Assembly (NCBI GenBank): GCA_963924555.1
Contig: OZ004581.1
Coordinates: forward strand, 8,161,338-8,225,337
Length of the DNA: 64,000 nt
Direction: 5' to 3'
Source: Crambe crambe
Lineage: Eukaryota > Porifera > Demospongiae > Poecilosclerida > Crambeidae
The first letter of the stretch is position 1. Each line of letters begins with the position of its first letter. The notes under the pieces are model-generated. The model saw only the letters and a list, made by a program, of their open reading frames with translations. It searched no databases and was not told where the DNA came from. Positions 2,159 through 47,247 of the stretch are shown piece after piece. The position numbers and the translations under genes were made by a program.

Positions 2159-3350
2159 AAAGAAAATATTGATACACATACTAACTAGGGCAATGTTCAA
2201 CATTCAGTTGGCAGCGAGCGAGCAAGCAAGTATTCTTTAGTGCTACAACTCTTTAGAATATTTTGCTGTTTAGTTTAGACAGTGAGCAAGTGAGCATGAT
2301 AGGCTCCAGTGCTTGATATTGCGTCAGAGACAAGAGTCATGTAAGTGGTGGTTCCAACCAGAAAGCTCCACTGCATCAAAAGCTGTAAATACTTACCACA
2401 AGCACTTAGATAAGCCAAGCGCCTACAATTCACTTTGATACATTATTAATTTTGACAGAGAGTGAGCAAGCAAGTTAGTGCTATAACTCTTTAGAAAATT
2501 TATGTAACAAAGTACCAGGCTAGAGCCTCTACAACTACTACTACACATGTAGCAATGTGCAGCATTTGACAGTGAGCAAGTGAGTAGCTGATAGGCTCCA
2601 GTGCTTGCTGTCAGAGACAAGAGTATGTAAGTTGTGGTTCCAACCGGGTAGCTCCATATATAGAAAGCTGTAAATACTTACCACAAGCACTTAGATTACA
2701 ATCCACTTAGATAAGTCTAGCGCCTCTATGATAAAGGCTGTAGAAAATAATCTAGCTTGATTAATTGGAGCATGTGCATTATGCACGTGCACAGCGCTAC
2801 TATTTCTGGACACATAGGTACATACGCATACGCCTGGGGCATTTTGGAGTGTAGACCTAAATATTTTATAAAATTTCAATGAGTCATGACCTGAGAGTCA
2901 GCTCGCTCGCTGCAACTAAAGGTCATGATCATACCACTTTCTAATCAATAGACATTCCAAACACAATCTTGAAACATCCTTCCTTTATTTGGTAAAGGGT
3001 TGACAAGTGAGAATTGGCCCCACCCACCCATGGGCCACATATGCACACTGAGGAATGAGCTTCCAAGTCATTACCAGTGGTGGGTTGCATTGGTACACCC
3101 ACAACTAAATGAGCTGGTGTCACACCCTAGCCCCTAGCCCCTGCCCCTAGCCCCTAGTCCCTAGTCCCTAGTCCCTAGCCCTTAGCTCCTAGTCCCTAGC
3201 CCCTAGTCCCTAGTCCCTAGCCCCTAGCCTCTAGTCCCTAGCCCCTAGCTACTTTTTTCATGTGAATGCACTTACAAAATATGGTTCAGCTCTGCTAGAA
3301 GTAGCCTTCTTCTCGGTCTTTTCATTCCTTTCTTTTTTTTTATTACTCAT
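1..3350 (-). CDS. 5' part of a second microexon-array gene (paralogue of the gene at 24056-47247), cut by the window edge
   Basis: The first coding exon is 3276-3350: ATG at 3350-3348, 25 codons beginning MSNKKKERNE and ending SSRAEPYF, then a GTAAGT donor. It ends in phase 0. It is clearly paralogous to the exon at 47173-47247; both share KKATSSRAEPYF. Downstream on the minus strand, about 20 candidate 3-nt microexons run from 2153-2155 (GAG) to 12-14 (GAG), each between a CTTCAG-type acceptor and a GTAAGT-type donor. Codons read include AAA, CCG, TTG, TGG, TTA, TCG, GAA, CGG and GAT; none is a stop. The Roc-COR part expected after the array would lie left of base 1 and is not seen. A promoter-like stretch at about 3400-3475 resembles 12597-12682 and 47630-47725. 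The exon is well supported by conservation; use of the microexons is inferred. Confidence 0.6.
3123..3252. repeat. Degenerate CCCTAG(C/T) short tandem repeat
   Basis: About 18 units of CCCTAGC or CCCTAGT in tandem lie just 3' of the first-exon donor of the left array gene. A shorter version of the same repeat (about 3 units) stands at 47120-47145 beside the paralogous exon. It resembles a telomere repeat at first sight, but the period is mostly seven and the unit is not CCCTAA. Confidence 0.85.
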
Positions 3351-24055: not shown

Positions 24056-27000
24056 TCAGTACCAACCTACCATACAGTACTTTTGTTCAATGCTAGATGC
24101 AATATCTTTGCAGTTGACCAAAGGATCTCTGAGGGCTGTGCAGAGACTGTTCCAAGATGGTGGCTGACTTCCCTTCATCTTCAGCCACTGTTTGATGAGT
24201 TCTCTCATGCATCCATTGATGTCATTGGGGTTGTCAACTCCTATCTTCTCAACTTCAGCATCTGATAGTCCTAGGACGATTCCAAGGTCCTCCCATTCCT
24301 TCACTATGTCAATCAATGCTGTCCTCACATTGCGATAGGCTGCATACAGGCAAACACCCAATGGCATGACTCACAGCTATGTTGCTAGGTAGCTCACTGG
24401 GTATAACTATACATGTGCATGACATATACTATCCACTCACTCAAGGTGTCATCTTTAACTTGACTTGCTTCAACTGATTTTCTTGTTGGTTCACTCTATA
24501 GACATACACAATGGAGGTTGTCTTTAAATCATAGAAGATGATCTTCTTTAACTTACATCAGGAGCACTGCTTGTTCCTAGTGGTTGAGGTTTGCTGGTCA
24601 AAGTTGTGGACTGAGTAGGTGCTGGACTGCAACCAGGTTGAGGTGCACTTTGCAACTGGTTCAATGCTGAGATGAAAACATAATATTAATAACTACCATC
24701 AGTGACAGGTCAAGGAATTTGTGAATACACACCATTAGAGGTAACAAACCAGGTGGGTCTTTCACTTCTGTCCTCTGAGATAGTTTGGCAGCTATCTATC
24801 TACAGTATCTAGTCACAACCCACCCATACCATGTAACACTGGATGGGGCCCCCACTTTAGCTAGCTAGTCACAACCCACCCATACCATGTAACACTGGAT
24901 GGGGCCCCCACTTTAGCTAGCTAGTCACAACCCACCCATACCATGTAACACTGGATGGGGCCCCCACTTCAGCTAGCTAGCATTAATTTTTTGAGGACAA
25001 ACATTTTTGAACACAATGGTAGCTACCCTCAGTCATCATGTTATAGCTCTGGACCACGATATAAATATTGTGACTAGACCTATAAAATTCATTATTCATT
25101 GTGCTAGTAACCTAATATTATTCACCCTAACACACACTCTGATCCAATGATTACCTGTATGAGCAAATTGTGAGGATTGATGGTGTCTATTAGACTCTGT
25201 CAAAGGTTGTTCGTCTATTAAAGATCGTTTGCCTATCAGAGAATACCAAGATCATGTGAAATTAGAATGCTGTATACTGTAGGCACAGGAAACTGTTAAG
25301 ATTAAAATTACAAGCTGAAAATAATCTTGGGACCAACTTAAGTTATAATTATTTGAAAGACGATTAACCAAATTCCAATTTCTGCTCCAAGCAGAATTGA
25401 TATACTGTCTATGCATAAATAAACATTGATCAATTTATAAAATAAAGGAAGAATAGAATTAGTTAATAGGCATACCCTGCGAAAAAAGCAGGTCTGGGTG
25501 GGCATATCATGCAAAAATTAGTTCTCTATAAAAATAGTTGGGGAGACAGTTCATATTGCAAAAATTCATCTGCTGACATAAAATCAATGGTCCCTCAAGG
25601 ACCAGAATTTGAGGGTCCCTCCTTGCCAGGGGATGATTTTTGTAAAATGAATGGTCTCCTCCCATCTGCCACAAATAATAAAGTCCCCTCTAAGGTGGTA
25701 AAACAAAGTGTGTGAATTTCTTGCTTGTATGAATACACAGTGATGTGGGTGTCACACTGTGGTGGTGTACCATTGATGATACCGTAATCGTATAAATTTT
25801 CAATGGGGTTTTATTTTTGTTTTTTTCGTAGTCGATCAGAATCCTCGAAAATAATAAACAAAGTCTTAGTACTATGACGTCATAATATCTATGACGACGA
25901 TGCGCATGCGTGTGCGATGCGATATTAATAGCAGCTAGAAAAAAACCTGGAGCAGATAGTCCGTGAGACGAAAGTATCATGCTTCATTACCGGGATCATG
26001 GCTGTTACCTGTCTCTCTTCTACAACAAAGTGTCTCTCCTTCCGTAGCAGTAGCGATTCCGGAAGCCATACATTTCCTGAAACTTTGCCCGGCCAGCGCA
26101 GCCTGACGGTTATAGAAGTGCTTGATGTTTAGGTATCACTAGCTAGCTTATAACAAGGCCTACCTGCTGGTGTGGGTTAACCAAGGAACAGGTGAAGCAC
26201 ATAGATGTTATACAGATTTACTGTTTTCCCCATATAAATCTCCATAGAACTAAAAATCAAAGGCACTAACTGTGAACATAACACACTGGTTCATTTGGTG
26301 TTTGAGTAGTTAGTACATTTATTAAGCTGCTACTGGATATGAGTTACGTGTTCATGTGTTGATTGATGTTTGAGATAGAGCTAGTGATACGCGGGCAGGT
26401 CTAGCTTCCAGAATCAAGCCCAGCTTTTCTTCTTTTTGGGGGACTATCTAGATTTCTCTGTAGTAGCCACGAATCACGAGAAGGTAGCAGCCATCATGCA
26501 TGTCACTCGGCCCCAGCAGCAGGCAATGATATAGCTATTATGCGCATGCATTATTTTCCATGTGCTTGCTACGAAAATTAGACCTGCGGAAAATTTTTAT
26601 TATAGGAACAGCTCCAGAAATCACGAAATTTTAAACCTCCGACAATTACGGTATCCAATTACCTTTCCAAATCACTGTGTCTCTAATAGATTTAGCAAGT
26701 TGGTTCAATCCAATATCTTCCAGCACAGACACCAGAGTCTCCCAGGACACAGGCCGTCTCCCTTTCCCTTGCAGCCATTCTTGAAACACTCGATAGTTGA
26801 TGCCTTGTGCGTTCTTCATCAGTTCTTTTTCAAGGGCACTGATGTGTGCTCCAGTCTGGTCTTCTAGGAGGAGTATTCCGAACTCAAGGTACTTAGTTCC
26901 AACTTCTTTAGTCAAGTTCACTTTAGAGTCTTGCAAAGGGAAGCAGATGATGTTCATCATGGTTGGGGGACTGCAAGAACCTGCAATTAAAGCCCCACGA

Positions 27001-28793: not shown

Positions 28794-31700
28794 AAAAATG
28801 ATGAACCTTGTGGAGTGTGTGTTTCCTTTTCCTTATAACTTCCGTCTTTGTGGTACATTAGTCTAGATGGGGGGGAGTGTTAAATCATGAGAAAGTATTA
28901 TTTGGCATAACTTACTTCATTTGCATGTCTTTTATTCCTATGCAACTCAAGTGGTGGAGGAGGTAAGGTCTGGCTGGAATATTCATCATCTCCATCTCCT
29001 TCTGCCATTTTTCTAGCAGAATCATAGCATCATTTTTGATGTATGGAAGATGTTCTGACATCTCCAAGGCTTCTGCCAGTTCCTTCACCTTCTCACACTT
29101 CAGAACCTCCATGGCAATAAATTCAAGTTCAGAGGAAGAGATGTTTGCATTAGGTGAATGGTCCTGCATGAAATAGGTAAAGAGCAACAGTCATTATGAA
29201 ATGAGACAAAGAGGTATGACTCACTTGTCGAATATTGAACCAAAATCTCTGGAAATCATTTAACTTTGTTTGATTCCCTTTCTGACAAATGAGGGCTGGG
29301 TTGGAAGTGGTGGGAGATGATGGAAGGATCACAAAATGATCGCTTTGTGGGCAGCCTTCACATTTCAGTGCAAAATCAATATTGATTCCGGGAAGCCACT
29401 TTTTGATATCGGAAGATGAGTCTTGAAGTATTTCAAGAATATCACGACATGAACTTATGAAGGGACAGTTGCACTCTCTTGAATTGATACGTTGTACATC
29501 AACTCTCACGCTCAACTTTTCTTCTGTAATGAAAAGTCTGTCCAGTTGCTGTCCAGGAGATCCAAACAAAAATTGGATTTGATTTCGATATATTTTTTCA
29601 TTGACAGGTAAATAACATTTTGGGTGCTTTGACATGACTGCTGCCAGTTGAGTGAAGAAGCCTGGAGGCAAGTAGTTGGTGTTGAAAACAAGATGAAAAG
29701 GAATTGCAAATTTGATGGCAGTGCTAATTGATTGTGGATCATCAACTTTCAATAAATGAGGTAGCATGGATGGAACAAAATACTTCCTACCAGGACCCTT
29801 ATGCTTTTCGATACTGATTGTAGCAATAATCAAGAAATGTTCCAACAGATCCACGATTTGTTGAGGTTGCAACTCTTTTTGAGCACTCAATACTTCCTGG
29901 TATAATGATTCTACTAATACTCCATCCTCACGCAGCAACTTCCAGAGACGGCTGTTTCTACATTCTTCTCGCCCTTCCAGTGCCAACAAACGGGCTATTT
30001 GCTTGATGAGCCATTGAGGGTCAGCAATGACACAAGACTTCAAGCTGGGGATGTCAGAGTAGTGAAAGAATACGGCAAGATCGTGATAGAATGCAAGAAT
30101 GCTAGTAAGAGTATCTTCAGGGATTAAACATGCTCTGCATAATTCCTTCACTTCCTCTAAAGGAACTACTGGCTTCTTTTGAGATCTGGCATATCTCTGG
30201 AACACTTTCCTGAACAGCAACCAAGTGATTGGAGTACGAATAGCTAAGTTTTTTGTTGCAAACTTATTCACAATTGTACGAATGAGCTTAAAAGTGTTAT
30301 CTTCTTCAAGCTCTCCTTTACCAGCTGTTGTATTATCGACTATTGCTCCATCCAGAACAATGTCAGAAAAAGCTTTATCTGTAAATTCTGTAGAAAGCTT
30401 TTCAAGAATCTCATCCTTCCTTTCCTTGACAGAAACATCGTCACCATGTGAACCAACAGGCAGAACGAGAGGATACTTGGGGGCTTCTTCATCTCCATCA
30501 CTTTCTTTATCAATAATGAGCCTCTTATTCAAGAGAGTAGCATGAATGGTGGATATCCACTGCACCATCAAGTCAAGTGTGGATATATCTTCTAGATGCG
30601 CAGTGGCTCTTCCTTTAAGATAGGTAAGACACTGATACTGATCATGGAGATCACACCTGGCATCGAACATTAAGAGAAACAATGTCCTCGCGGTTAGAAA
30701 CGCAGGAAGAATTTTAAGAAAGACTGGCTGGCCTCCACAATCCCACACATGCAGATAAACTTCCTCTTTGATAAATGGGTCACCAGTGATTATAACAGAA
30801 AGAATCTCTTTCAAAATCCCCTCAATTAATGGGTGGTCAAACTTGGGGGCAGTTTTACTAGGTTGAATCTCACCACTGCTCACATCACTTTCGCTGCTTG
30901 TATCACTTCCAATGCTCACATCACTTCCTGTGGCAGACTTGGAATCTTTGTAGTCAAGAATAGTTTGTATCAACTGAGCAAGTCCTTTGATTTCATCAGC
31001 ATCAGTTATTTTTGTCCAGAATTTTCCTTCCTGGCTGCAGGCCCAGTAACTCTCAGTGGGGCGGAGGGAGAACGTGTCAGCCACCTGGGTGCTGTAGGCT
31101 TCACAGGGAAGGGGCAGATTCATCAAGCCATTGAGTAGACTGCTCTTGCCCACACCTCCAGGACCAACGATCATCACACGAGCATATGCAACCTTCGTTT
31201 CACCCTGCCCCAGGGCATTCAGGTAATCCACTGAAAATCAAACATACAAAATAATCAATATCTATCAAAGTAAAAATATTACCTTCAGTCCTTGAGGCTC
31301 GAATCTCAAAAAAAAAAAAAAAAGAATTCAACATGGAAACAAAGTTGATTCATAAGTGAATTATGCACAAAAGACATACACTCACCACCTGAAAATATAA
31401 TATAAAAATATAATAGAATAGACAGCATAACTTACCGACTGAAGAAATCATCAAAATACGTCCGACAGAGTAAGAGAATAGACAGCATGTAAGTAACAAT
31501 GCAGAGAGTGAGTCAGTTCAGAATAACTTACCAACTGAAGGAATGAAATTAAAGCATCGAATACGACAGTGAAGGTACGACAGGGTAAGTTAATAGATAG
31601 CATGTAAGTAACAATGCAGAGAGTGAGTCAATTCAGAATAACTTACTGACTGAAGGAATGATCAAAATACGACAGTGAAGGTACGACAGGGTAAGAGAAT

Positions 31701-34700
31701 AGACAGCATGTAAGTAACAATGCAGAGAGTGAGTCAGTTCAGAATAACTTACAAACTGAAGGAATGAAATTAAGCATCAAAATACGACAGTGAAGGTACG
31801 GCAGGGTAAGAGAATAGACAGCATGTAAGTAACAATGCAGAGAGTGAGTACGTTCAAAATAACTTACAAACTGAAGGAATGAAATTAAGCATCAAAATAC
31901 GACGACAGGGTAAGAGAATAGACAGCATGTAAGTAACAATGCAGAGAGTGAGTACGTTCAGAATAGCTTACCGGCTGAAGGAATGAAATTAAAGCATCGA
32001 ATACGACAGTTAAGGTATGACAGAATAAGAGAATAGACAGCATGTAAGTAACAATGCAGAGAGTGAGTACGTTCAGAATAGCTTACCGGCTGAAGGAATG
32101 AAATTAAAGCATCGAATACGACAGTGAAGGTACGACAGGGTAAGAGAATAGACAGCATGTAAGTAACAATGTAAAGAGTGAGTATATTCAGAATAACTTA
32201 CCAACTGAAGGAATGAAATTAAGCATCGAATACGACAGTGAAGGTACGACAGGGTAAGAGAATAGACAGCATGTAAGTAACAATGTAAAGAGTGAGTATA
32301 TTCAGAATAACTTACCAACTGAAGGAATGTAATTAAGCATCAAAATACGACAGTGAAGGTACAACAGCGTAAGAGAATAGACAGCATGTAAGTAACCATG
32401 CAGAGAGTGAGTACGTTCAGAATAACTTACCGACTGAAAAAATGAAATTAAGCATCAAAATACGACAGTGATGGTACGACAGGATAAGAGAATAGACAGC
32501 ATGTAAGTAACAATGCAGAGAGTGAGTACGTTCAGAATAGCTTACATGCTGAAGGAATGAAATTAAAGCATCGAATACGACAGTGAAGGTACGACAGGGT
32601 AAGAGAATAGACAGCATGTAAGTAACAATGCAGAGAGTGAATCAGTTTTGAATAACTTACTTGCTGTAGGAATGAAATTAAGCATCAAAATACGACAGTG
32701 AAGGTACAACAGGGTAAGGGAATAGACAGCATGTAAGTAACAATGCAGAGAGTGAATATATTCAGAATAACGTACCTCCTGAAAGAATGAAATTAAACAT
32801 TAAAATACGACAGTGAAGGTACAAAAGGGTAAGAGAATAGACAGCATGTAAGTGACAATGCAGAGAGTGAGTCAGTTCAGAATAACTTACTCGCTGAAGA
32901 AATGAAATTAAAGCATCGAATACGACAGTGAAGGTACGACAGGGTAAGAGAATAGACGACATGTAAGTAACAATGCAGAGAGTGAGTATGTTCAGAATAA
33001 CTTACCGGCTGAAGGAATGAAATTAAAGCATCGAATACGACAGTGAAGGTACGACAGGATAAGAGAATAGACATCATGTAATTAACAATGCAGAGAGTGA
33101 GTACATTCAGAATAACTTACCAACTGAAGGAATGAAATTAAACATCAAAATACGACAGTGAAGGTATAAAAGGGTAAGAGAATAGACAGCATGTAAGTGA
33201 CAATGCAGAGAGTGAGTCAGTTCAGAATAACTTACCCGCTGAAGGAATTAAATTAAGCATCAAAAGACGACAGTGAAGGTATGGCAGGGTAAGAGAATAG
33301 ACAGCATGTAAGTAACAATGCAGAGAGTGAGTACGTTCAGAATAACTTACCTCCTGAAGGAATGAAATTGAGCATCAAAATATGACAGTGAAGGTACAGC
33401 AGGGTAAGAGAATAGACAGCATGTAAGTAACAATGTAAAGAGTGAGTATATTCAGAATAACTTACCAACTGAAGGAATGAAATTAAAGCATCGAATACGA
33501 CAGTGAAGGTACGACAGGGTAAGAGAATAGACAGCATGTAAGTAACAATGTAAAGAGTGAGTATATTCAGAATAACTTACCAACTGAAGGAATGAAATTA
33601 AGCATCGAATACGACAGTGAAGGTACGACAGGGTAAGAGAATAGACAGCATGTAAGTAACAATGTAAAGAGTGAGTATATTCAGAATAACTTACCAACTG
33701 AAGGAATGTAATTAAGCATCAAAATACGACAGTGAAGGTACAACAGCGTAAGAGAATAGACAGCATGTAAGTAACCATGCAGAGAGTGAGTACGTTCAGA
33801 ATAACTTACCGACTGAAAAAATGAAATTAAGCATCAAAATACGACAGTGATGGTACGACAGGATAAGAGAATAGACAGCATGTAAGTAACAATGCAGAGA
33901 GTGAGTACGTTCAGAATAGCTTACATGCTGAAGGAATGAAATTAAAGCATCGAATACGACAGTGAAGGTACGACAGGGTAAGAGAATAGACAGCATGTAA
34001 GTAACAATGCAGAGAGTGAATCAGTTTTGAATAACTTACTTGCTGTAGGAATGAAATTAAGCATCAAAATACGACAGTGAAGGTACAACAGGGTAAGGGA
34101 ATAGACAGCATGTAAGTAACAATGCAGAGAGTGAATATATTCAGAATAACGTACCTCCTGAAAGAATGAAATTAAACATTAAAATACGACAGTGAAGGTA
34201 CAAAAGGGTAAGAGAATAGACAGCATGTAAGTGACAATGCAGAGAGTGAGTCAGTTCAGAATAACTTACTCGCTGAAGAAATGAAATTAAAGCATCGAAT
34301 ACGACAGTGAAGGTACGACAGGGTAAGAGAATAGACAACATGTAAGTAACAATGCAGAGAGTGAGTATGTTCAGAATAACTTACCGGCTGAAGGAATGAA
34401 ATTAAAGCATCGAATACGACAGTGAAGGTACGACAGGATAAGAGAATAGACATCATATAATTAACAATGCAGAGAGTGAGTACATTCAGAATAACTTACC
34501 AACTGAAGGAATGAAATTAAACATCAAAATACGACAGTGAAGGTATAAAAGGGTAAGAGAATAGACAGCATGTAAGTGACAATGCAGAGAGTGAGTCAGT
34601 TCAGAATAACTTACCCGCTGAAGGAATTAAATTAAGCATCAAAAGACGACAGTGAAGGTATGGCAGGGTAAGAGAATAGACAGCATGTAAGTAACAATGC

Positions 34701-37700
34701 AGAGAGTGAGTACGTTCAGAATAACTTACCTCCTGAAGGAATGAAATTGAGCATCAAAATATGACAGTGAAGGTACAGCAGGGTAAGAGAATAGACAGCA
34801 TGTAAGTAACAATGTAAAGAGTGAGTATATTCAGAATAACTTACCAACTGAAGGAATGAAATTAAAGCATCGAATACGACAGTGAAGGTACGACAGGGTA
34901 AGAGAATAGACAGCATGTAAGTAACAATGTAAAGAGTGAGTATATTCAGAATAACTTACCAACTGAAGGAATGAAATTAAGCATCGAATACGACAGTGAA
35001 GGTACGACAGGGTAAGAGAATAGACAGCATGTAAGTAACAATGTAAAGAGTGAGTATATTCAGAATAACTTACCAACTGAAGGAATGTAATTAAGCATCA
35101 AAATACGACAGTGAAGGTACAACAGCGTAAGAGAATAGACAGCATGTAAGTAACCATGCAGAGAGTGAGTACGTTCAGAATAACTTACCGACTGAAAAAA
35201 TGAAATTAAGCATCAAAATACGACAGTGATGGTACGACAGGATAAGAGAATAGACAGCATGTAAGTAACAATGCAGAGAGTGAGTACGTTCAGAATAGCT
35301 TACATGCTGAAGGAATGAAATTAAAGCATCGAATACGACAGTGAAGGTACGACAGGGTAAGAGAATAGACAGCATGTAAGTAACAATGCAGAGAGTGAAT
35401 CAGTTTTGAATAACTTACTTGCTGTAGGAATGAAATTAAGCATCAAAATACGACAGTGAAGGTACAACAGGGTAAGGGAATAGACAGCATGTAAGTAACA
35501 ATGCAGAGAGTGAATATATTCAGAATAACGTACCTCCTGAAAGAATGAAATTAAACATTAAAATACGACAGTGAAGGTACAAAAGGGTAAGAGAATAGAC
35601 AGCATGTAAGTGACAATGCAGAGAGTGAGTCAGTTCAGAATAACTTACTCGCTGAAGAAATGAAATTAAAGCATCGAATACGACAGTGAAGGTACGACAG
35701 GGTAAGAGAATAGACAACATGTAAGTAACAATGCAGAGAGTGAGTATGTTCAGAATAACTTACCGGCTGAAGGAATGAAATTAAAGCATCGAATACGACA
35801 GTGAAGGTACGACAGGATAAGAGAATAGACATCATGTAATTAACAATGCAGAGAGTGAGTACATTCAGAATAACTTACCAACTGAAGGAATGAAATTAAA
35901 CATCAAAATACGACAGTGAAGGTATAAAAGGGTAAGAGAATAGACAGCATGTAAGTGACAATGCAGAGAGTGAGTCAGTTCAGAATAACTTACCCGCTGA
36001 AGGAATTAAATTAAGCATCAAAAGACGACAGTGAAGGTATGGCAGGGTAAGAGAATAGACAGCATGTAAGTAACAATGCAGAGAGTGAGTACGTTCAGAA
36101 TAACTTACCTCCTGAAGGAATGAAATTGAGCATCAAAATATGACAGTGAAGGTACAGCAGGGTAAGAGAATAGACAGCATGTAAGTAACAATGCAGAGAG
36201 TGAGACAGTTCAGAATAACGTACCTCCTGAAGGAATGAAATCAAAATACGACAGTGAAGGTAAGACAGGGTAAGAGAATAGACAACATGTAAGTAACAAT
36301 GCAGAGAGTGAGTACGTTCAGAATAACTTACCAACTGAAGGAATGAAATTAAGCATCAAAATACGACAGTGAAGGTAAGACAGGGTAAGAGAATATACAG
36401 CATGTAAGTAACAATGTAGAGAGTGAGTCTGTACAGAATAACTTACTTTCTGAAGGAATGAAATTATGCATCGAAATACGACAGTGAAGGTACAACAGGG
36501 AAAGAGAATAAACAGCATGTAAGTAACAATGCAGAGAGTGAGTATGTTCAGAATAACTTACCGACTGAAAAAATGAAATTAAGCATCAAAATATAACATG
36601 TGAAGATACGACAGGGTAAGAGAATAGACAGTATGTAAGTAACAATGCAGAGAGTGAGTTAGTTCAGGATAACTTACCGGCTAAAAGAATGAAATTAAGC
36701 ATCAAAATATAACAGTGAAGATACGACAGGGTAAGAGAATAGACAGCATGTAAATAACAATGCAGAGAGTGAGTCAGTTCAGGATAACTTACAAGCTAAA
36801 GGAATGAAATTAAGCATCAAAATATAACAGTGAAGATACGACAGGGTAAGAGAATAGACAGCATGTAAGTAACAATGCAGAGAGTGAGTCAGTTCAGGAT
36901 AACTTACCGGCTAAAGGAATGAAATTAAGCATCAAAATATAACAGTGAAGATACGACAGGGTAAGAAAATAGACAGCATGTAAGTAACAATGCAGAGAGT
37001 GAGTCAGTTCAGGATGACTTACTTGCTAAAGGAATGAAATTAAGCATCAAAATATAACAGTGAAGGTAAGACAGGGTAAGAGAATAGACAGCATGTAAGT
37101 AACAATGCAGAGAGTGAGTATTTTCAGAATAACTTACTTTCTGAAGGAATAAAATTAAGCATCGAAATACGACAGTGAAGGTACAACAGGGTAAGAGAAT
37201 AGACAGCATGTAAGTAACCATGCAGAAAGTGAGTACGTTTAGAATAATTTACCTCCTGAAGGAATATAATTAAAGTATCGAATAATTATGACAGTGACGG
37301 TACAACAGGGTAAGAGAATAGAAAGTATGTAAGTAACAATGCAGAGAGTGAGTATGTACAGAATAACTTACCGACTGAAGAAATCATCAAAATATGTCAG
37401 TGAAGGTACGACAGAGTAAGAGAATAGACAGCATGTAAGTAACAATGTAAAAAGTGAGTCAGTTCAGAATAACTTACTGGCTGAAGGAATGAAATTAAGC
37501 ATCAAAATACGACAGTGACGGTATAACAGAGTAAGAGAATAGACAGCATGTAAATAACCATGCAGAGAGTGAGTCAGTTCAGAATAACTTACTAACTGAA
37601 GGAATCATCAAAATATGACAGTGAAGGTACAACAGGGTAAGAGAATAGACAGCATGTAAGTAACCATGCAGAGAGTGAGTACGTTCGGAATAACTTACCA

Positions 37701-40700
37701 ACTGAAGGAATGAAATTAAAGCATCGAATACGACAGTGAAGGTACAACAGGGTAAGAGAATAGACAGCATGTAACGATGCAGAGAGTGAGTCTGTACAAA
37801 ATAACTTACCAACTGAAGGAATGAAATTAAGCATCAAAATATGATAGTGAAGGTACGACAGGGTAAGAGTATAGACAGCATGTAAGTAACAATGCATAGA
37901 GTGAGTCTGTACAGAATAACTTACTTTCTGAAGGAATAAATTAAGCATCGAAATACAACAGTGAAGGTAAGACAGGGTAAGAGTATAGACAGCATGTAAG
38001 TAACAATGCAGAGAGTGAGTCTGTACAGAATAACTTACTTTCTGAAGGAATGAAATCAAGCATCGAAATACGACAGTGAAGGTACGACAGGGTAAGAGAA
38101 TAAACAGCATGTAAGTAACAATGCAGAGAGAGAGTATGTTCAGAATAACTTACAGACTGAAAAAATGAAATTAAGCATCAAAATATAACATGTGAAGATA
38201 TGACAGGGTAAGAGAATAGACAGTATGTAAGTAACAATGCAGAGAGTGAGTTGGTTCAGGATAACTTACCGGCTAAAGGAATGAAATTAAGCATCAAAAT
38301 ATAACAGTGAAGATACGACAGGGTAAGAGAATAGACAGCATGTAAGTAACAATGCAGAGAGTGAGTCAGTTCAGGATAACTTACCGCCTAAAGGAATGAA
38401 ATTAAGCATCAAAATATAACAGTGAAGATACGACAGGGTAAGAGTATAGACAGCATGTAAGTAACAATGCAGAGAGTGAGTATTTCAGAATAACTTACTT
38501 TCTGAAGGAATAAATTAAGCATCGAAATACGACAGTGAAGGTACGACAGGGTAAGAGTATAGACAGCATGTAAGTAACAATGCAGAGAGTGAGTCTGACA
38601 GAATAACTTACTTTCTGAAGGAATAAATTAAGCATCGAAATACAACAGTGAAGGTAAGACAGGGTAAGAGTATAGACAGCATGTAAGTAACAATGCAGAG
38701 AGTGAGTCTGTACAGAATAACTTACTTTCTGAAGGAATGAAATCAAGCATCGAAATACGACAGTGAAGGTACGACAGGGTAAGAGAATAGACAGCATGTA
38801 AGTAACAATGCAGAGAGTGAGTACGTTCAGAATAGCTTACCGGCTGAAGGAATGAAATTAAAGCATCGAATACGACAGTTAAGTAACGACAGGGTAAGAG
38901 AATAGACAGCATGTAAGTAACCATGCAGAGGGTGAGTACGTTCAGAATAACTTACCGACTGAAGAAATGAAATTAAGCATCAAAATACGACAGTGAAGGT
39001 ATGACAGGGTAAGAGAATAGACAGCATGTAAGTAACAATGCAGAGAGTGAATCAGTTTTGAATAACTTACTTGCTGTAGGAATGAAATTAAGCATCAAAA
39101 TACGACAGTGAAGGTACAACAGGGTAAGGGAATAGACAGCATGTAAGTAACAATGCAGAGAGTGAGTACGTTCAGAATAGCTTACCGGCTGAAGGAATGA
39201 AATTAAAGCATCGAATACGACAGTTAAGGTATGACAGAATAAGAGAATAGACAGCATGTAAGTAACAATGCAGAGAGTGAGTACGTTCAGAATAGCTTAC
39301 CGGCTGAAGGAATGAAATTAAAGCATCGAATACGACAGTGAAGGTACGACAGGGTAAGAGAATAGACAGCATGTAAGTAACAATGTAAAGAGTGAGTATA
39401 TTCAGAATAACTTACCAACTGAAGGAATGAAATTAAGCATCGAATACGACAGTGAAGGTACGACAGGGTAAGAGAATAGACAGCATGTAAGTAACAATGC
39501 AGAGAGTGAGTACGTTCAGAATAGCTTACCGGCTGAAGGAATGAAATTAAAGCATCGAATACGACAGTTAAGTAACGACAGGGTAAGAGAATAGACAGCA
39601 TGTAAGTAACCATGCAGAGGGTGAGTACGTTCAGAATAACTTACCGACTGAAGAAATGAAATTAAGCATCAAAATACGACAGTGAAGGTATGACAGGGTA
39701 AGAGAATAGACAGCATGTAAGTAACAATGCAGAGAGTGAATCAGTTTTGAATAACTTACTTGCTGTAGGAATGAAATTAAGCATCAAAATACGACAGTGA
39801 AGGTACAACAGGGTAAGGGAATAGACAGCATGTAAGTAACAATGCAGAGAGTGAGTACGTTCAGAATAGCTTACCGGCTGAAGGAATGAAATTAAAGCAT
39901 CGAATACGACAGTTAAGGTATGACAGAATAAGAGAATAGACAGCATGTAAGTAACAATGCAGAGAGTGAGTACGTTCAGAATAGCTTACCGGCTGAAGGA
40001 ATGAAATTAAAGCATCGAATACGACAGTGAAGGTACGACAGGGTAAGAGAATAGACAGCATGTAAGTAACAATGTAAAGAGTGAGTATATTCAGAATAAC
40101 TTACCAACTGAAGGAATGAAATTAAGCATCGAATACGACAGTGAAGGTACGACAGGGTAAGAGAATAGACAGCATGTAAGTAACAATGTAAAGAGTGAGT
40201 ATATTCAGAATAACTTACCAACTGAAGGAATGTAATTAAGCATCAAAATACGACAGTGAAGGTACAACAGCGTAAGAGAATAGACAGCATGTAAGTAGCA
40301 ATGCAGAGAGTGAGTATTTTCAGAATAACTTACTTTCTGAAGGAATAAAATTAAGCATCGAAATACGACAGTGAAGGTACGACAGGGTAAGAGAATAGAT
40401 AGCATGTAAGTAGCCATGCAGAGAGTGAGTACGTTCGGAATAACTTACCAACTGAAGGAATGGAATTAAGCATCAAAATACGACAGTAAAGGTACAACAG
40501 GGTAAGAGAATAGACAGCATGTAAATGACAATGCAGAGAGTGAGTCAGTTCAGAATAACTTACCAGCTGAAAGAATTAAATTAAGCATCAAAAGACGACA
40601 GTGAAGGTATGGCAGGGTAAGAGAATAGACAGCATGTAAGTAACAATGCAGAGAGTGAGTCAGTTCAGAATAACTTACATACTGAAGGAATGAAATTAAG

Positions 40701-43700
40701 CATCGAAATACGACAGTGAACGTACGACAGGGTAAGAGTATAGACAGCATGTAAGTAGCAATGCAGAGAGTGAGTATTTTCAGAATAACTTACTTTCTGA
40801 AGGAATAAAATTAAGCATCGAAATACGACAGTGAAGGTACGACAGGGTAAGAGAATAGATAGCATGTAAGTAGCCATGCAGAGAGTGAGTACGTTCGGAA
40901 TAACTTACCGACTGAAGGAATGAAATTAAAGCATCGAATACGACAGTGAAGGTACAATAGGGTAAGAGAATAGACAGCATGTAAGTAACCATGCGTATGT
41001 TCAGAATAACTTACCGACTGAAGAAATCATCAAAATACGTCAGTGAAGGTATGACAGAGTAAGAGAATAGACAGCATGTAAGTAACCATGCAGAGAGTGA
41101 GTACGTTCAGAATAACTTACCGACTGAAGGAATGAAATTAAAGCATCGAATACGACAGTGAAGGTACAACAGGATAAGAGAATAGATAGCATGTAAGTAA
41201 CAAAGTCAGTTCAGAATAACTTTACCTCCTGAAGGAATAAAATTAAGCATCAAAATACGACAGTGAAGGTACAACAGGGTAAGAGAATAAACAGCATGTA
41301 ATTGACAATGCAGAGAGTGAGTCAGTTCAGAATAACTTACCCGCTGAAGGAATTAAATTAAGCATCAAAAGACGACAGTGAAGGTATGGCAGGGTAAGAG
41401 AATAGACAGCATGTAAGTAACAATGCAGAGAGTGAGTCAGTTCAGAATAACTTACTCGCTGAAGGAATGAAATTAAGCATCAAAATACGACGACAGGGTA
41501 AGAGAATAGACAGCATGTAAGTAACAATGCAGAGAGTGAGTACGTTCAGAATAACTTACCGACTGAAGGAATGAAATGAAGCATCAAAATACGACAGTAA
41601 AAGTACGGCAGGGTAAGAGAATAGACAGCATGTAAGTAACAATGCAGAGAGTGAGTATGTTCAAAATAACTTACCTTCTGAAGGAATGAAATTAAGCATC
41701 AAAATACGACAGTGAAGGTAAGACAGGGTAAGAGAATAGACAGCATGTAAGTAACAATGCAGAGAGTGAGTCAGTTCAGAATAACTTACTCGCTGAAGGA
41801 ATGAAATTAAGCATCAAAATACGACGACAGGGTAAGAGAATAGACAGCATGTAAGTAACAATGCAGAGAGTGAGTACGTTCAGAATAACTTACCTCCTGA
41901 AGGAATGAAATTAAGCATCAAAACAGGGTAAGAGAATAGACAGCATGTAAGTAACAATGCAGAGAGTGAGTACGTTCAGAATAACTTACCTCCTGAAGGA
42001 ATGAAATTAAGCATCAAAATACGATGACAGGGTAAGAGAATAGACAGCATGTAAGTAACAATGCAGAGAGTGAGTACGTTCAGAATAACTTACCTCCTGA
42101 AGGAATGAAATGAAGCATCAAAATACGACAATGAAGGTGAGACAGGGTAAGAGAATAGACAGCATGTAAGTAACAATGCAGAGAGTGAGTCAGTTTAGAA
42201 TAACTTACCTCCTTAAGGAATGAAATTAAGCATCAAAATACGACAGTGAAGGTACGGCAGGGTAAGAGAATAGACAGCATGTAAGTAACAATGCAGAGAG
42301 TGAGTATGTTCAGAATAACTTACCATCTGAAGGAATGAAATTAAGCATCAAAATACGACAATGAAGGTAAGACAGGGTAAGAGAATAGACAGCATGTAAG
42401 TAACAATGCAGAGAGTGAGTCAGTTCAGAATAACTTACCTTCTGAAGGAATGAATTCAAGGATCGAAACACGACAGTGAAGGTACGAGAGGGTAAGAGAA
42501 TAAACAGCATGTAAGTAACAATGCAGAGAGTGAGTACGTTCAGAATAACTTACCTCCTGAAGGAATGAAATGAAGCATCAAAATACGACAATGAAGGTGA
42601 GACAGGGTAAGAGAATAGACAGCATGTAAGTAACAATGCAGAGAGTGAGTCAGTTTAGAATAACTTACCTCCTTAAGGAATTAAATTAAGCATCAAAAGA
42701 CGACAGTGAAGGTATGGCAGGGTAAGAGAATAGACAGCATGTAAGTAACAATGCAGAGAGCGAATACGTTCAGAATAACTTACAATCTGAAGGAATGAAA
42801 TTAAGCATCAAAATACGACAGTGAAGGTACAACAGGGTAAGAGAATAGACAGCATGTAAGTAACAATGCAGAGAGTGAGTACATTCAGAATAACTTACCA
42901 ACTGAAGGAATGGAATTAAGCATCAAAATACGACAGTAAAGGTACAACAGGGTAAGAGAATAGACAGCATGTAAGTAACAATGCAGAGAGTGAGTACGTT
43001 CAGAATAACTTACATCCTGAAGGAATGAAATTAAGCATCAAAATACGACAGTGAAGGTAAGACAGGGTAAGAGAATAGACAGCATGTAAGTAACAATGCA
43101 GAGAGTGAGTACGTTCAGAATAACTTACCGACTGAAGGAATGAAATTAAGCATCAAAATATAACAATGAAGATACGACAGGGTAAGAAAATAGACCGCAT
43201 GTAAGTAACAATGTAGAGAGTGAGTCAGTTCAGGATAACTTACCGGCTAAAGGAATGAAATTAAGTATCAAAATATAACAGTGAAGGTAAGACAGGGTAA
43301 GAGAATAGACAGCATGTAAGTAACAATGCAGAGAGTGAGTCAGTTCAGGATAACTTACCGGCTAAAGGAATGAAATTAAGCATCAAAATATAACAGTGAA
43401 GGTAAGACAGGGTAAGAGAATAGACAGCATGTAAGTAACAATGCAGAGAGTGAGTCAGTTCAGGATAACTTACCGGCTAAAGGAATGAAATTAAGTATCA
43501 AAATATAACAGTGAAGGTAAGACAGGGTAAGAAAATAGACAGCATGTAAGTAACAATGCAGAGAGTGAGTCAGTTCAGAGTAACTTACATACTGAAGGAA
43601 TGAAATTAAGCATCAAATACGACAGTAAAGGTACAACAGGGTAAGAGAATAGACAGCATGTAAGTAACAATGCAGAGAGTGAGTACATTCAGAATAACTT

Positions 43701-46700
43701 ACCAACTGAAGGAATGGAATTAAGCATCAAAATACGACAGTAAAGGTACAACAGGGTAAGAGAATAGACAGCATGTAAATGACAATGCAGAGAGTGAGTC
43801 AGTTCAGAATAACTTACCTTCTGAAGGAATGAAATTAAGCATCAAAATACGACAGTGAAGGTAAGACAGGGTAAGAGAATAGACAGCATGTAAGTAACAA
43901 TGCAGAGAGTGAATCAGTTCTGAATAACTTACTTGCTGTAGGAATGAAATTAAGCATTGAAATACGACAGTGAAGGTACGACAGGATAAGAGAATGTAAG
44001 CAACAATGAAGAGAGTGAGTATGTTCAGAATAACTTACCAACTGAAGGAATGAAATTAAGCATCAAAATACGATAGTAAAAGTACGAGAACAGACAGCAT
44101 GTAAGTAACAAAATGCAGAGTGAGTTTATTCAGAATAACTTACCCGCTGAAGGAATAAATTAAGCATCAGTGACAGTATGACAGGGTAAGAGAATAGACA
44201 GCATGTGAGTAACAATGTAGAGTGTGAGTTGGTTCAGAATAACTTACCAGCTGAAGGCATCAAAATACGACAAGATAAGAGAATAGACAACATGTAAGTA
44301 ACAATGCAGAGAGTGAGTTTATTCAGAATAACTTACCCACTGAAGGAATGAAATTAAGCATCAAAATACGACAATGAAGGTATGACAGGGTAAGAGAATA
44401 GACAGCATGTGAGTAACAATGTAGAGTGTGAGTTGGTTCAGAATAACTTACCAGCTTAAGGCATCAAAATACGACAGGGTAAGAGAATAGACAGCATGTA
44501 AGTAACAATGCAGAGAGTGAGTACGTTCAGAATAACTTACATCCTGAAGGAATAAAATTAAGCATCAAAATACAACAGTGAAGGTAAGACAGGGTAAGAG
44601 AATAGACAGCATGTAAGTAACAATGCAGAGAGTGAGTACGTTCAAAATAACTTACATCCTGAAGGAATGAAATTAAGCATCAAAATACGACAGTGAAGGT
44701 AAGACAGGGTAAGAGAATAGACAGCACGTAAGTAACAATGCAGAGAGTGAGTACGTTCAGAATAACTTACATCCTGAAGGAATGAAATTAAGCATCAAAA
44801 TACGACAGTGAAAGTAAGACAGGGTAAGAGAATAGACAGCACGTAAGTAACAATGCAGAGAGTGAGTACATTCAGAATAACTTACCAACTGAAGGAATGA
44901 AATTAAGCATCAAAATACGACAGTGAAGGTAAGACAGGGTAAGAGAATAGACAGCATGTAAGTAACAATGCAAAGAGTGAGTCAGTTCAGAATAACTTAC
45001 TTGCTGAAGGAATGAAATTAAGCATCAAAATACGACGACAGGGTAAGAGAATAGACAGCATGTAAGTAACAATGCAGAGAGTGAGTACGTTCAGAATAAC
45101 TTACCGACTGAAGGAATGAAATTAAGCATCAAAATACGACAGTGAAGGTAAGACAGGGTAAGAGAATAGACAGCATGTAAGTAACAATGCAGAGAGTGAG
45201 TACGTTCAGAATAACTTACATCCTGAAGGAATGAAATTAAGCATCAAAATACGACAGTGAAGGTAAGACAGGGTAAGAGAATAGACAGCATGTAAGTAAC
45301 AATGCAGAGAGTGAGTACGTTCAGAATAACTTACAAACTGAAGGAATGAAATTAAGCATCAAAATATGATGACAGGGTAAGAGAATAGACAGCATGTAAG
45401 TAACAATGCAGAGAGTGAGTACGTTCAGAATAACTTACATCCTGAAGGAATGAAATTAAGCATCAAAATACGACAGTGAAGGTAAGACAGGGTAAGAGAA
45501 TAGACAGCATGTAAGTAACAATGCAGAGAGTGAGTACGTTCAGAATAACTTACAAACTGAAGGAATGAAATTAAGCATCAAAATATGATGACAGGGTAAG
45601 AGAATAGACAGCATGTAAGTAACAATGCAGAGAGTGAGTACGTTCAGAATAACTTACATTCTGAAGGAATGAAATTAAGCATCAAAATACGACAGTGAAG
45701 GTAAGACAGGGTAAGAGAATAGACAGCATGTAAGTAACAATGCAGAGAGTGAGTACGTTCAGAATAACTTACAAACTGAAGGAATGAAATTAAGCATCAA
45801 AATACGACAGTGAAGGTACGGCAGGGTAAGAGAATAGACAGCATGTAAGTAACAATGCAGAGAGTGAGTACGTTCAGAATAACTTACCAACTGAAGGAAT
45901 GAAATTAAGCATCAAAATACGACGACAGGGTAAGAGAATAGACAGCATGTAAGTAACAATGCAGAGAGTGAGTACGTTCAGAATAACTTACCGACTGAAG
46001 GAATGAAATTAAGCATCAAAATACGACAGTGAAGGTAAGACAGGGTAAGAGAATAGACAGCATGTAAGTAACAATGCAGAGAGTGAGTACGTTCAGAATA
46101 ACTTACCGACTGAAGGAATGAAATTAAGCATCAAAATACGACGGTAAAAGTACGGCAAGAGAACAGACAGCATGTAAGTAACAAAATGCAGAGAGTGAGT
46201 TTATTCAGAATAACTTACCCGCTGAAGGAATAAATTAAGCATCAGTGACAGTATGACAGGGTAAGAGAATAGACAGCATGTGAGTAACAATGTAGAGTGT
46301 GAGTTGGTTCAGAATAACTTACCGGCTGAAGGCATCAAAATACGACAGGGTAAGAGAATAGACAGCATGTAAGTAACAATGCAGAGAGTGAGTTTATTCA
46401 GAATAACTTACCCGCTGAAGGAATGAAATTAAGCATCAAAATACGACAATGAAGGTATGACAGGGTAAGAGAATAGACAGCATGTGAGTAACAATGTAGA
46501 GTATGAGTTGGCTCAGAATAACTTACCATCTGAAGCATCAAAAACAACAATGAAGGTACGACAGAGTAAGAAAATAAACAGCATGTAAGTAATAGTGCTG
46601 AAAGTTGTCAAGAATAACTCACATCCTGAAGGATCTAAATATGTCAATGAAGGTATGACAGGGTAAGATAATGAGAAGTGATAAAACAATAATTATGTTA

Positions 46701-47247
46701 ATGAAGTATAAGTAATGACTTACCAGGAGAAGGGGTAATAAGTTCCAACATCAAATTGAGTGTGTATGATGTGAAAGAACATGATGCCAAATATAATAAT
46801 GTCAGTCTTGAATGACTCACCTCCTGAAAGAAAACATTGATACACATACTAACTAAAGGTCGTGATCATAACATAATTCAGCACTTTCTAATCGATAAAT
46901 ATTCCAGTCACAATCTTGAAACCTCCTTCCTTTTTTGGTAAAGGGTTGACAAGTGAGAATTGGCCCCACCCGTACACATGGGTCACATAGGCACACTGCA
47001 GTACAGCACAAGCTGCACTTCAGGTGAGGAAGGAATGAGCTTCCAAGTCATTACCAGTGATGGGTTGCATTGGTACACTCTCTATAATCAATACTCCACA
47101 ACTAAATGAGCTGTCACACCCTAGCCCCTAGTCCCTAGTCCCTAGCTACCTTTTTCATGTGAATGCACTCACAAAATATGGTTCAGCTCTGCTAGAAGTA
47201 GCCTTCTTCTCTGCTTCTTCATTCTCTTCACCTTTTTTATCACTCAT
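24056..47247 (-). CDS. Roc-COR-Death GTPase gene with an array of one-codon microexons after exon 1
   Basis: Exon 1 (47247-47173; MSDKKGEENE...SSRAEPYF) ends in phase 0. After the microexon array come 31304-31283 (22 nt, IRASRTE+1), 31230-29225 (668 codons), 29163-28916, 28862-28807 (weak donor), 28387-28310, 27947-27829, 27767-27713, 26980-26663, 25232-25155, 24666-24557, 24495-24441 and 24369 to a TGA at 24056. All phases match. In the long exon: P-loop GPGGVGKS about 23 residues in, a Ser/Asp-rich insert, the G3 motif DCGGQ about residue 164, SHGDD in the G4 position, then a COR domain (FYHDLAVFFHY, VIADPQWLIKQ). Death-like domains lie at 29163-28916, 26980-26663 and 24369-24071. Roc-COR GTPases with Death domains are signalling proteins, probably cytosolic. 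No LRR or kinase is seen. The first Death exon also reads into a stop, so shorter forms are possible. Confidence 0.7.
24441..25460 (-). repeat. Duplicated exon module inside the Roc-COR-Death gene, copy 2 (partner 27713-28620)
   Basis: Three exons and their introns are repeated nearly identically: 78 nt (GKRSLIDEQPLTESNRHHQS...), a Pro/Gln/Ser/Thr linker (110 nt here, 119 nt in the partner, a 9-nt in-frame difference) and 55 nt (SEPTRKSVEASQVKD). Each module is followed by a Death-domain exon. The incoming and outgoing phases are the same, so the duplication adds a linker plus a Death domain without breaking the frame. The two Death exons have diverged far more than the linker exons. Confidence 0.85.
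24811..24979. repeat. Three tandem copies of a 56-bp unit
   Basis: Copies start at 24811, 24867 and 24923 with AGTCACAACCCACCCATACC and end with CCCCCACTT(T/C)AGCTAG. They lie in an intron of the second linker module; the partner module at about 28100-28150 has only one degenerate copy. Confidence 0.9.
25500..26640. other. Long intron between the first Death exon and the second linker module
   Basis: No coding exon is supported between 26662 and 25233. The part around 25860-26130 is richer in CG, with a TGACGTCA site near 25877, and could hold promoter activity. That is only a suggestion from composition. Confidence 0.4.
27324..27690. mobile_element. MITE with CAGTGAAAC termini and TA target duplication
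   Basis: The left end is CAGTGAAACCTGTCTAATC and the right end, reversed, is CAGTGAAACAAGACCTCCC. TA flanks both sides (27322-27323 and 27691-27692). It has no coding frame and is 367 bp long. It lies in the intron between the 55-nt linker exon and the first Death exon, and is absent from the other module. Confidence 0.7.
28638..28790. repeat. GA-rich microsatellite
   Basis: Blocks of (GA)n are separated by GGAAGA or GGGGAAGA interruptions. The Arg/Glu and Ser/Leu frames across it are by-products. Confidence 0.95.
31283..31304 (-). other. 22-nt exon linking the microexon array to the GTPase exon
   Basis: The minus strand reads a long T run, GAG acceptor, ATTCGAGCCTCAAGGACTGA plus AG, then the donor GTAATATT. 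It encodes IRASRTE plus one base, which with TG from the next exon gives GTG. Its start in phase 0 is what makes the array of 3-nt exons and the first exon fit in frame. Confidence 0.65.
32100..36190 (-). repeat. Higher-order repeat: three copies of a 12-unit block (1379 bp)
   Basis: Identical or nearly identical blocks recur at a shift of 1379 bp (for example 32417, 33796 and 35175). Each has twelve units with the same triplet order in transcript sense, including TCG, CAT, CAA, GAG, CGA, CCG, TTG, CGG, GAG, TTG, TTG, TTG when read left to right. Very few differences remain between copies (such as CGAC/CAAC near 32957, 34337 and 35716), so the expansion is recent. Confidence 0.9.
38770..40250 (-). 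repeat. Second higher-order repeat: two copies of a 6-unit block (689 bp)
   Basis: The stretches beginning near 38820 and 39509 repeat at a shift of 689 bp, with the triplets CCG, TCG, CAA, CCG, CCG, TTG in the same left-to-right order. Parts also match the block at 31930-32330, so segments have been copied between distant parts of the array. Confidence 0.85.
47173..47247 (-). other. First coding exon of the microexon-array gene
   Basis: Twenty-five codons from ATG (47247) to a TTT just before the donor GTGAGTGC. It is Lys/Glu-rich at first and ends ATSSRAEPYF. It is conserved in the paralogue at 3276-3350 with substitutions mainly in the charged part, and its phase-0 end is shared. An upstream sequence TTACTGGATCACATC precedes both ATGs; a GTAAGAAATATT further up may be a 5'-UTR donor. 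Confidence 0.7.

Follow-up and report, generated by a model that had tools for sequence, protein, structure and literature searches.

We analysed a 64,000-nucleotide (nt) stretch of chromosome 1 of the sponge Crambe crambe (contig OZ004581.1; hereafter the window) and found on its minus strand a gene of the Roco type in which 138 putative exons of exactly one codon each are arranged in tandem between a first exon and the exon for the Roc and COR domains. Read from the DNA, the evidence comprises the architecture, the reading frame, the lack of stop codons in the arrays linked to Roc exons, the retention of the design in paralogs and a variation focused on the codon. We consider it rather probable that these micro-exons are real, that they are spliced in order and that they encode a hypervariable segment of the protein, with a probably mostly constitutive inclusion.

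Architecture of the window gene

An earlier note on this DNA had proposed about 138 one-codon micro-exons, built of 115-base-pair (bp) units with splice signals around three bases and lying between a 25-codon first exon and the Roc-COR exon. We counted exactly 138 AG-NNN-GT triplets on the minus strand between positions 46823 and 31386 (Table 1). The proposed unit proved correct to the base, with an acceptor and a donor at each triplet, and the array occupies exactly the place in the gene that had been assigned to it. Each repeat unit of about 115 bp corresponds to a complete 112-nt intron plus one 3-nt exon. In a consensus-similarity scan, which allowed 0-12 bases between acceptor and donor, 137 sites were detected in the window array; in 136 of them AG and GT enclosed exactly 3 nt, and the remaining one, a GAG with the shifted donor GTAAAG, also comprises 3 nt. 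The core TTCAG-N{0,12}-GTAAGTTATTCTGAAC occurred 63 times in the window, always with three bases, and was not found in 100 shuffles. As the unit is a tandem repeat, the 138 copies do not represent 138 independent events.

The sense triplets of the window array take 25 forms among all 138 (24 among the 136 scanned), with TTG as a frequent one (n = 24). The predicted peptide reads EDMRPRSSLFNF...FFSLSV and includes the stretch LEERLPREQHSLLLER. A higher-order repeat within the array gives the block peptide L(E)ERLPREQHSLL, and its TCG triplet recurs at 35191, 33812 and 32433. A reading of the array as one long open reading frame (ORF) was rejected, the longest open stretch being 185 amino acids (aa) in 15.4 kb in the window and 86-183 aa in eight other arrays.

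Exon 1 begins with MSDKKGEENEEAEKK... and is charged throughout by inspection. The 22-nt exon behind the array consists of seven codons and one base, and the first two bases of the Roc exon complete the interrupted codon. Joined together, exon 1, the 138 triplets, the 22-nt exon and the Roc-COR exon form 839 open codons, and the frame through the three conventional exons is open both with the triplets and when they are left out. The gene had also been called a Death-domain GTPase. Of this description the GTPase part is firm: the scores were 36.8 bits for PF08477, with a cut-off of 27, and 58 bits for PF16095, with a cut-off of 35.3, and Roc stands before COR as in Roco proteins. The Death assignment is less secure, as only the second of two Death-like exons matched the Pfam Death family PF00531, at E 0.01 and below the cut-off, and the exon next to COR had no Pfam match when searched alone.

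According to the genome paper, the assembly was built on 459-fold HiFi reads (PMC12166358), so a 15-kb array of 115-bp repeats should be well resolved. The genome that we searched comprised 143,139,886 bases in 119 contigs, with the window on C1 (chromosome 1); the published genome is given there as 143,197,480 bases in 124 scaffolds (PMC12166358), so that about 58 kb and five small pieces are absent from the searched set.

Exon length and stop codons

Genome-wide, the exact core TTCAG-NNN-GTAAGTTATTCTGAAC was found 2232 times (145 forward, 2087 reverse), and the same core with 0-2 or with 4-12 bases was not found at all. This gapped type of pattern recovers the 3-base cores in the window, at least in a local search. 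Hence the exon length is constant at 3 nt although intron lengths vary. The unit pattern had no match in viral or genome contig databases.

Nine Roc-linked arrays were read, namely that of the window (g2) and those of the paralogs g3 to g10, the g9 array being incomplete at its 5' end. Together they hold 797 units, of which only three lack the AG acceptor; the remaining 794, including the GAG/CCA pairs of g4 discussed below, were used for triplet counts. Before counting, we removed the hits on a conserved, non-exonic stretch located upstream of the arrays, a single non-site in g4 and stray hits upstream of g7 and g10, and seven shifted alignments in g2 and g3 as well as one in the Roc-less array g1 were re-read by rule as 3-nt exons. 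Two micro-exon donors are GC instead of GT. None of the 794 micro-exons is a stop codon, compared with 102 expected from column shuffling. Among the 284 unique short units there were likewise 0 stops versus 33 expected, and for TAA and TGA together 0 versus 11, with a minimum of 2 in 5000 shuffles. In the other two frames the joined triplets contain 25 stops per 785 codons each.

The 2232 exact cores include no TAA or TGA, with 500 ending in A, and few TAG (4), CAG (6) or C-ending triplets (19). Between each of the four TAG and the five minus-strand CAG cores and the following exon 1 there is no Roc exon, judged from coordinates only and with some Roc exons lacking a detected exon 1. The sixth CAG belongs to a cluster on the plus strand at C1:6.64 Mb, for which the Roc search gave no match. 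CAG is also absent from the 794 Roc-linked triplets, where 44 would be expected. We ascribe the scarcity of CAG and of C-ending triplets to splice-type limits on the triplet, as CAG would make a strong competing acceptor. Since TAG and CAG may both be avoided for splicing, TAA and TGA are the cleaner evidence for translation. The commonest triplet is GAG, with 154 of 794 versus 61 expected.

Variation within the units

We compared 59 units from six arrays that were picked by a mid-intron anchor and thus blind to the splice sites. AG-NNN-GT was present in all 58 that were ungapped there. The exon columns had entropies of 1.84 and 1.95 bits (the two most variable columns) and 1.04 bits, and most intron columns stayed below 0.5 bits apart from three positions with 1.67, 1.74 and 1.38 bits. 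Pairs of units from different genes that were identical from -50 to -11 (n = 3156, pairs not independent of each other) differed at the three exon bases with frequencies of 0.64, 0.57 and 0.52. The acceptor bases (-10 to -1) differed at 0.020 each and those of the donor (+1 to +10) at 0.028; the encoded residue differed in 83% of the pairs. Therefore, the codon is far more variable than the DNA on either side. Among pairs with different triplets 53 of 2670 were synonymous, which is about the same share as in random pairs (315 of 11888). These data fit selection for change as well as a local mutational bias. A strict modularity of the units was rejected: the nearest unit in another gene shares the triplet in 26-30% versus 8% expected, which indicates that units are copied as modules only in part.

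The introns contain further patterns. A second hypervariable dinucleotide, mostly GT or TG, is present in each unit at intron positions +17/+18 and is associated with the triplet beyond shuffles (AG in 59 of 85 AAA units, TG in 22 of 25 CAA units). On the plus strand of the units (31463-46535) there are two antisense cores, CAG-CAT-GTAAGT and CAG-AGA-GTGAGT, which read ACTTACATGCTG and ACTCACTCTCTG on the sense strand and are complementary to the splice cores. They are near-invariant in the window array (CAT 97 of 101, AGA 95 of 98) and not evident by eye in the C11 units described below. RNA secondary structure was rejected as a feature of the units, since four single units folded no better than shuffles (z -0.40 to 1.10). 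In two of these four, an ACUUAC within the same intron is paired to the donor GUAAGU, and ACTTACATG follows within 110 nt downstream in 586 of the 797 units.

The gene family on chromosome 1

The minus strand of C1 carries 23 copies of the Roc exon from 8.138 to 9.363 Mb, including that of the window, with 85-100% identity; two of them match only from residue 100 on, their first 119 residues being matched separately. All but one are free of internal stops. A further Roc fragment on C1 (68%, residues 538-668, one TAA) was kept outside this set. A DNA search of the genome with exon 1 gave 40 matches, and all were on C1: 38 of them, including three weak ones (E above 1e-10), belong to the minus strand and two to the plus strand; the three weak and the two plus-strand matches are omitted from our map of exon 1 and Roc copies.

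The eight arrays read end to end hold 23-193 usable units. Their ends are conserved: GAG is the first triplet in all eight Roc-linked arrays whose 5' end was read and GTG the last in all nine, and a genome search with up to 3 mismatches gave 18 occurrences of the last micro-exon with its flanks, of which 17 have GTG and one has ATG. In all nine Roc-linked genes examined the phases of the 22-nt-type exon and of the Roc exon agree, and so do those of exon 1 in the eight genes for which it was fetched, exon 1 of g9 being located outside the DNA that was read. The array peptides differ between paralogs (for example EDQRKERPWFQREDPWSRFW...GGRDRV, EDRFEEELKRLEKAAPSKNITFIFGSTEESRERLRERLRELKLEERDLIDGLMPSV and EDMREQRRWEEDREKRRFLLLEEKRLEEQLLRELGLLSEE...SSYRQV), except for these ends, an E-D-x-R start that many have and the pieces KSYLDGLS and LPPE shared by g5 and g9, despite Roc exons that are 84-93% identical to that of the window in the arrays read.

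After several copies of exon 1, the next exon 1 follows without a Roc exon between them. The array of one such copy, g1 (C1:8228831-8235047), contains a long run of TGG, and its exon 1 is rearranged and partly duplicated. Here AG is absent in 4 of 48 units versus 3 of 797 in the Roc-linked arrays (p = 0.0003), and one TGA is present (1 of 44 versus 0 of 794, p = 0.053). As calls of 4, 7 and 10 nt were dropped, g1 looks better kept than it really is. A Death-like exon (45% identity) is located downstream of g1 at 63140-63430 of the window. A plus-strand cluster of units at C1:6605981-6709000 includes two copies of exon 1 (6636325 and 6706638), with no Roc exon detected there; 100 of the 145 forward exact cores were listed, and these fall at C1 6.606-6.661 Mb.

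A second array-bearing subfamily

A Roc gene on C11, 46% identical to that of the window and one of 17 relatives on that strand, has its own array. In this array, the one read there, all 72 sites comprise 3 nt, two shifted alignments being allowed for. The introns are largely diverged, and what C11 units have in common with C1 units is GTAAGTTATTCTGAAC, a branch-like GATGCT(T/G)AATTT and TTCCTTCAG. The triplets mostly end in T and give an acidic and very different peptide, SDDWDEDRSRDNDYD.... Downstream, a 46-nt exon leads into the Roc exon, and phase 0 of the micro-exons is again preserved. Cores of the C11 type occur 560 times at up to 3 mismatches, and the 100 that were listed are all on C11, in two clusters. 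Upstream of two other Roc relatives, one on C20 and one on the C11 plus strand, about 7 kb contained just one or two isolated cores and no array. The same design in the C11 array indicates that it predates the split of the two array-bearing subfamilies.

Other features of the window

Two related ORFs (48835-49419 and 13822-14439; 72% over 123 aa) lie upstream of two array genes and had no Pfam match; they are probably part of a duplicated block. At 17098-19103 there are remains of an open frame that resembles a retroelement (Tf2-1 SH3-like, below cut-off); next comes an ORF that encodes a PHD finger and matches a cysteine peptidase weakly. An ISXO2/IS1595-type transposase domain is encoded at 56853-57509 (PF12762, E 3e-17), and an ORF with a FYVE zinc finger (PF01363) adjoins a 757-aa ORF that had no Pfam match (53523-54746 and 50482-52755).

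Table 1. Predicted exons and arrays in the window (all positions are those of the window).
Feature	Position	Strand	Remarks
Exon 1, 25 codons (MSDKKGEENEEAEKKATSSRAEPYF)	47173..47247	-	ATG...TTT; ends phase 0 at GTGAGT
First micro-exon, GAG (Glu)	46821..46823	-	donor GTGAGT; non-repeat flanks
Micro-exon array, n = 138, 3 nt each	31386..46823	-	introns mostly 112 nt (47-195)
Higher-order repeat within the array	32202..36334	-	block of 12-13 units (~1379 bp), three times, from triplet positions
Last micro-exon, GTG (Val)	31386..31388	-	non-repeat flanks
22-nt exon	31283..31304	-	IRASRTE and one base; restores frame into the Roc exon
Roc-COR exon	29225..31230	-	Roc PF08477, COR-A PF16095
Death-like exon downstream of COR (match range)	28915..29163	-	paralogs 64-95%
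Second Death-like exon (match range)	26661..26981	-	paralogs 58-89%, others ~45% or below
Array of neighbouring paralog g3, 5' part (19 micro-exons)	12..2155	-	extends left to ~C1:8140651; 193 usable units in total
Exon 1 of neighbouring paralog g3	3276..3350	-	80% aa identity

Discussion

The exact length of 3 nt, the missing stops, the frame shared by paralogs and the variation focused on the codon argue strongly that the units are genuine one-codon exons, as the earlier note had supposed. We propose that splicing would run along the array in the 5'-to-3' direction of the pre-mRNA. As soon as an exon is joined, its NNN-GTAAGT core would become the next donor, and splicing would be recursive with one codon added at each step. 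Since factors could hardly bind at both ends of a 3-nt exon at once, stepwise splicing is the simplest path, and the typical introns of 112 nt would suit intron definition. With most or all units included, the resulting segment would comprise about 20-190 residues and differ from paralog to paralog; symmetric exons would permit skipping, yet the near-complete preservation of the units in Roc-linked arrays favours the inclusion of most of them. Tandem duplication and conversion would homogenise the introns and alter the array length, and triplet changes kept by selection would rewrite the peptide. By its place before Roc-COR and the Death-like exons the segment would likely be a variable recognition or assembly region in signalling of the innate-immunity or cell-death type.

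Several observations weigh against this interpretation. The case for spliced micro-exons rests so far on genomic sequence. In the protein database, where the best 120 of 472 matches to the Roc exon with lengths of 0.55-1.75 of the query were considered, the 11 matches at 82-100% were ORFs on contigs of 0.43-1.07 Mb and not transcripts, and the four of them that were read all run into intron sequence; further matches are Roc exons of roughly 50-56% identity. With the spliced N-terminal query of g10 a single protein was retrieved, namely an ORF of 97 aa from a 508-kb contig; it covers only 21% of the query, corresponding to the length of exon 1. As these searches did not span all lengths, an absence of transcripts from the database is not proved. 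Among the Crambe RNA-seq papers found, none was of use as judged by its title. The array peptides had no Pfam match above cut-off, either for seven of the nine Roc-linked arrays (without g6 and g7) or for C11. For the repetitive g9 peptide 24 Pfam families appeared at E <=1, the best being DPC2 (2.8e-7), F-box_4 (6e-6) and eIF3 (9.5e-6), and these were taken as chance. The order of residues was rejected as a sign of a folded domain, the helical moment being inconsistent across nine arrays (z -0.9 to 3.6). Concerning the stops, avoidance of TAG and CAG may reflect splicing alone, through a competing acceptor. Such an avoidance is not general for triplets ending in AG, given that GAG is the commonest, and in unique units AAG shows no significant deficit (10 versus 13.7 expected). 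TGA by itself is weak in unique units (0 versus 2.6 expected, P 0.07), and the units are related by duplication, so their counts are not independent. Moreover, the Roc copy of g5 holds an internal TGA, with no stop in the g5 array, and three pairs of GAG/CCA calls in the g4 array are only 20 nt apart. This is too close for introns, so a few calls are wrong or alternative.

Different uses of the array also have to be considered. Every unit would be a symmetric phase-0 exon, so any subset, and equally the skipping of all units, would stay in frame. With splice sites that are near-identical between units the choice could be stochastic, and each transcript might then include a subset of units and yield very many in-frame peptides per gene; the 23 Roc copies and the differences among the nine banks read are in line with such a combinatorial generator, which the earlier note had put forward. 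Optional inclusion should however let broken units and stops accumulate, and the few AG-less units together with the complete lack of stops fit constitutive inclusion at least as well; no unusual folding was seen in the four units examined either. A combinatorial use is thus possible but rather unlikely. A related and fairly unlikely proposal is that of a codon bank, in which a variable recognition segment is held in movable one-codon units that are partly chosen at splicing, providing many peptides per signalling protein. Its units would be rewritten by duplication, conversion and triplet change, with peptides differing among cells or individuals, and in a sponge it would be a splicing-based equivalent of the diversity of immune receptors. 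Choice of a single unit in a mutually exclusive manner, as in a Dscam-like selector with one variable residue, would resemble the array outwardly in its tandem near-identical exons. It is extremely unlikely in our opinion, as 138 units that yield just 25 triplets, with 24 TTG, would be wasteful for one residue.

The array could, on the other hand, be without coding function. A 115-bp tandem repeat with higher-order structure might be an intronic satellite with splice-like signals by chance, spliced out whole or serving as a decoy, and the near-invariant antisense cores demonstrate that repeated AG-NNN-GT can arise as a by-product of amplification. We consider this quite unlikely in view of stop avoidance, conserved frame, exact 3-nt exons between variable introns, codon-focused variation and the persistence of the design in the C11 subfamily, which is 45% identical. 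Very unlikely, too, is a formerly coding array that bears the mark of past selection and is bypassed by present transcripts. Skipping all units would keep the frame, copies of exon 1 that are not followed by a Roc exon exist, and g1, the sole such array read, decays; yet the higher-order duplications in the window gene carry no stop, and the nine Roc-linked arrays are almost free of decay. Splicing in order, with a probably mostly constitutive inclusion, remains our preferred explanation.

Recursive splicing in long introns of flies and vertebrates removes the intron stepwise by means of an acceptor fused to a donor. The units of the window have a similar layout, with acceptor and donor adjacent across 3 nt. 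Ratchet exons, however, comprise 0 nt after splicing, whereas here each step would leave one codon. Dscam-type genes contain large tandem arrays of alternative exons of ordinary length, of which one is chosen per cluster; a large tandem array in one gene is shared with the present case and the 3-nt exon is not. Metazoan Roco proteins with Death domains are known, and the window gene resembles them in its Roc-COR region with a P-loop and in its downstream Death-like exons. We know of no Roco member with a segment encoded by one codon per exon, although no survey of the Roco literature was made.

Three further comparable systems are described in the literature. Single 3-nt micro-exons, which contribute one codon as proposed here, are described for Ncam, Drosophila troponin T and homothorax; they are reported singly per gene, in contrast to a tandem bank of dozens to hundreds (PMC8042270; PMC7392893). 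In plants, exons of 1 nt in APC11 and VPS55 are spliced with conserved GTRAGT donors, again described as conserved and one per gene, with no array of them (PMC8831610). The micro-exon genes (MEG) of Schistosoma are similar in that a protein region consists mostly of tandem, very short in-frame exons that vary between paralogs; they are described with 10-20 exons of 6-81 nt (3-81 in the abstract), most of 15 nt, introns of 0.1-5 kb and a signal peptide (PMC10526429). Here, by contrast, the putative exons are 3 nt, with 23-193 per complete array and homogenised introns of about 112 nt, and exon 1, being charged throughout, does not look like a signal peptide by inspection, unlike in the secreted MEG proteins. 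A literature search covering titles and the beginnings of abstracts, preprints excepted, found no tandem banks of one-codon exons. Provided that RNA confirms it, the architecture would be categorically new.

If the units are spliced as proposed, the smallest symmetric exon would be used as an alphabet with one residue per satellite repeat, and a protein sequence would become editable by the processes that expand satellites. The arrays would test the minimal exon of the spliceosome and represent a natural case of processive codon-by-codon splicing, with more than 100 steps in about 15 kb. Ordinary annotation and short-read aligners are expected to miss such arrays, and similar regions may hide as intronic repeats. 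For the sponge, a lineage without adaptive immunity, the arrays would constitute a new route to hypervariable protein segments.

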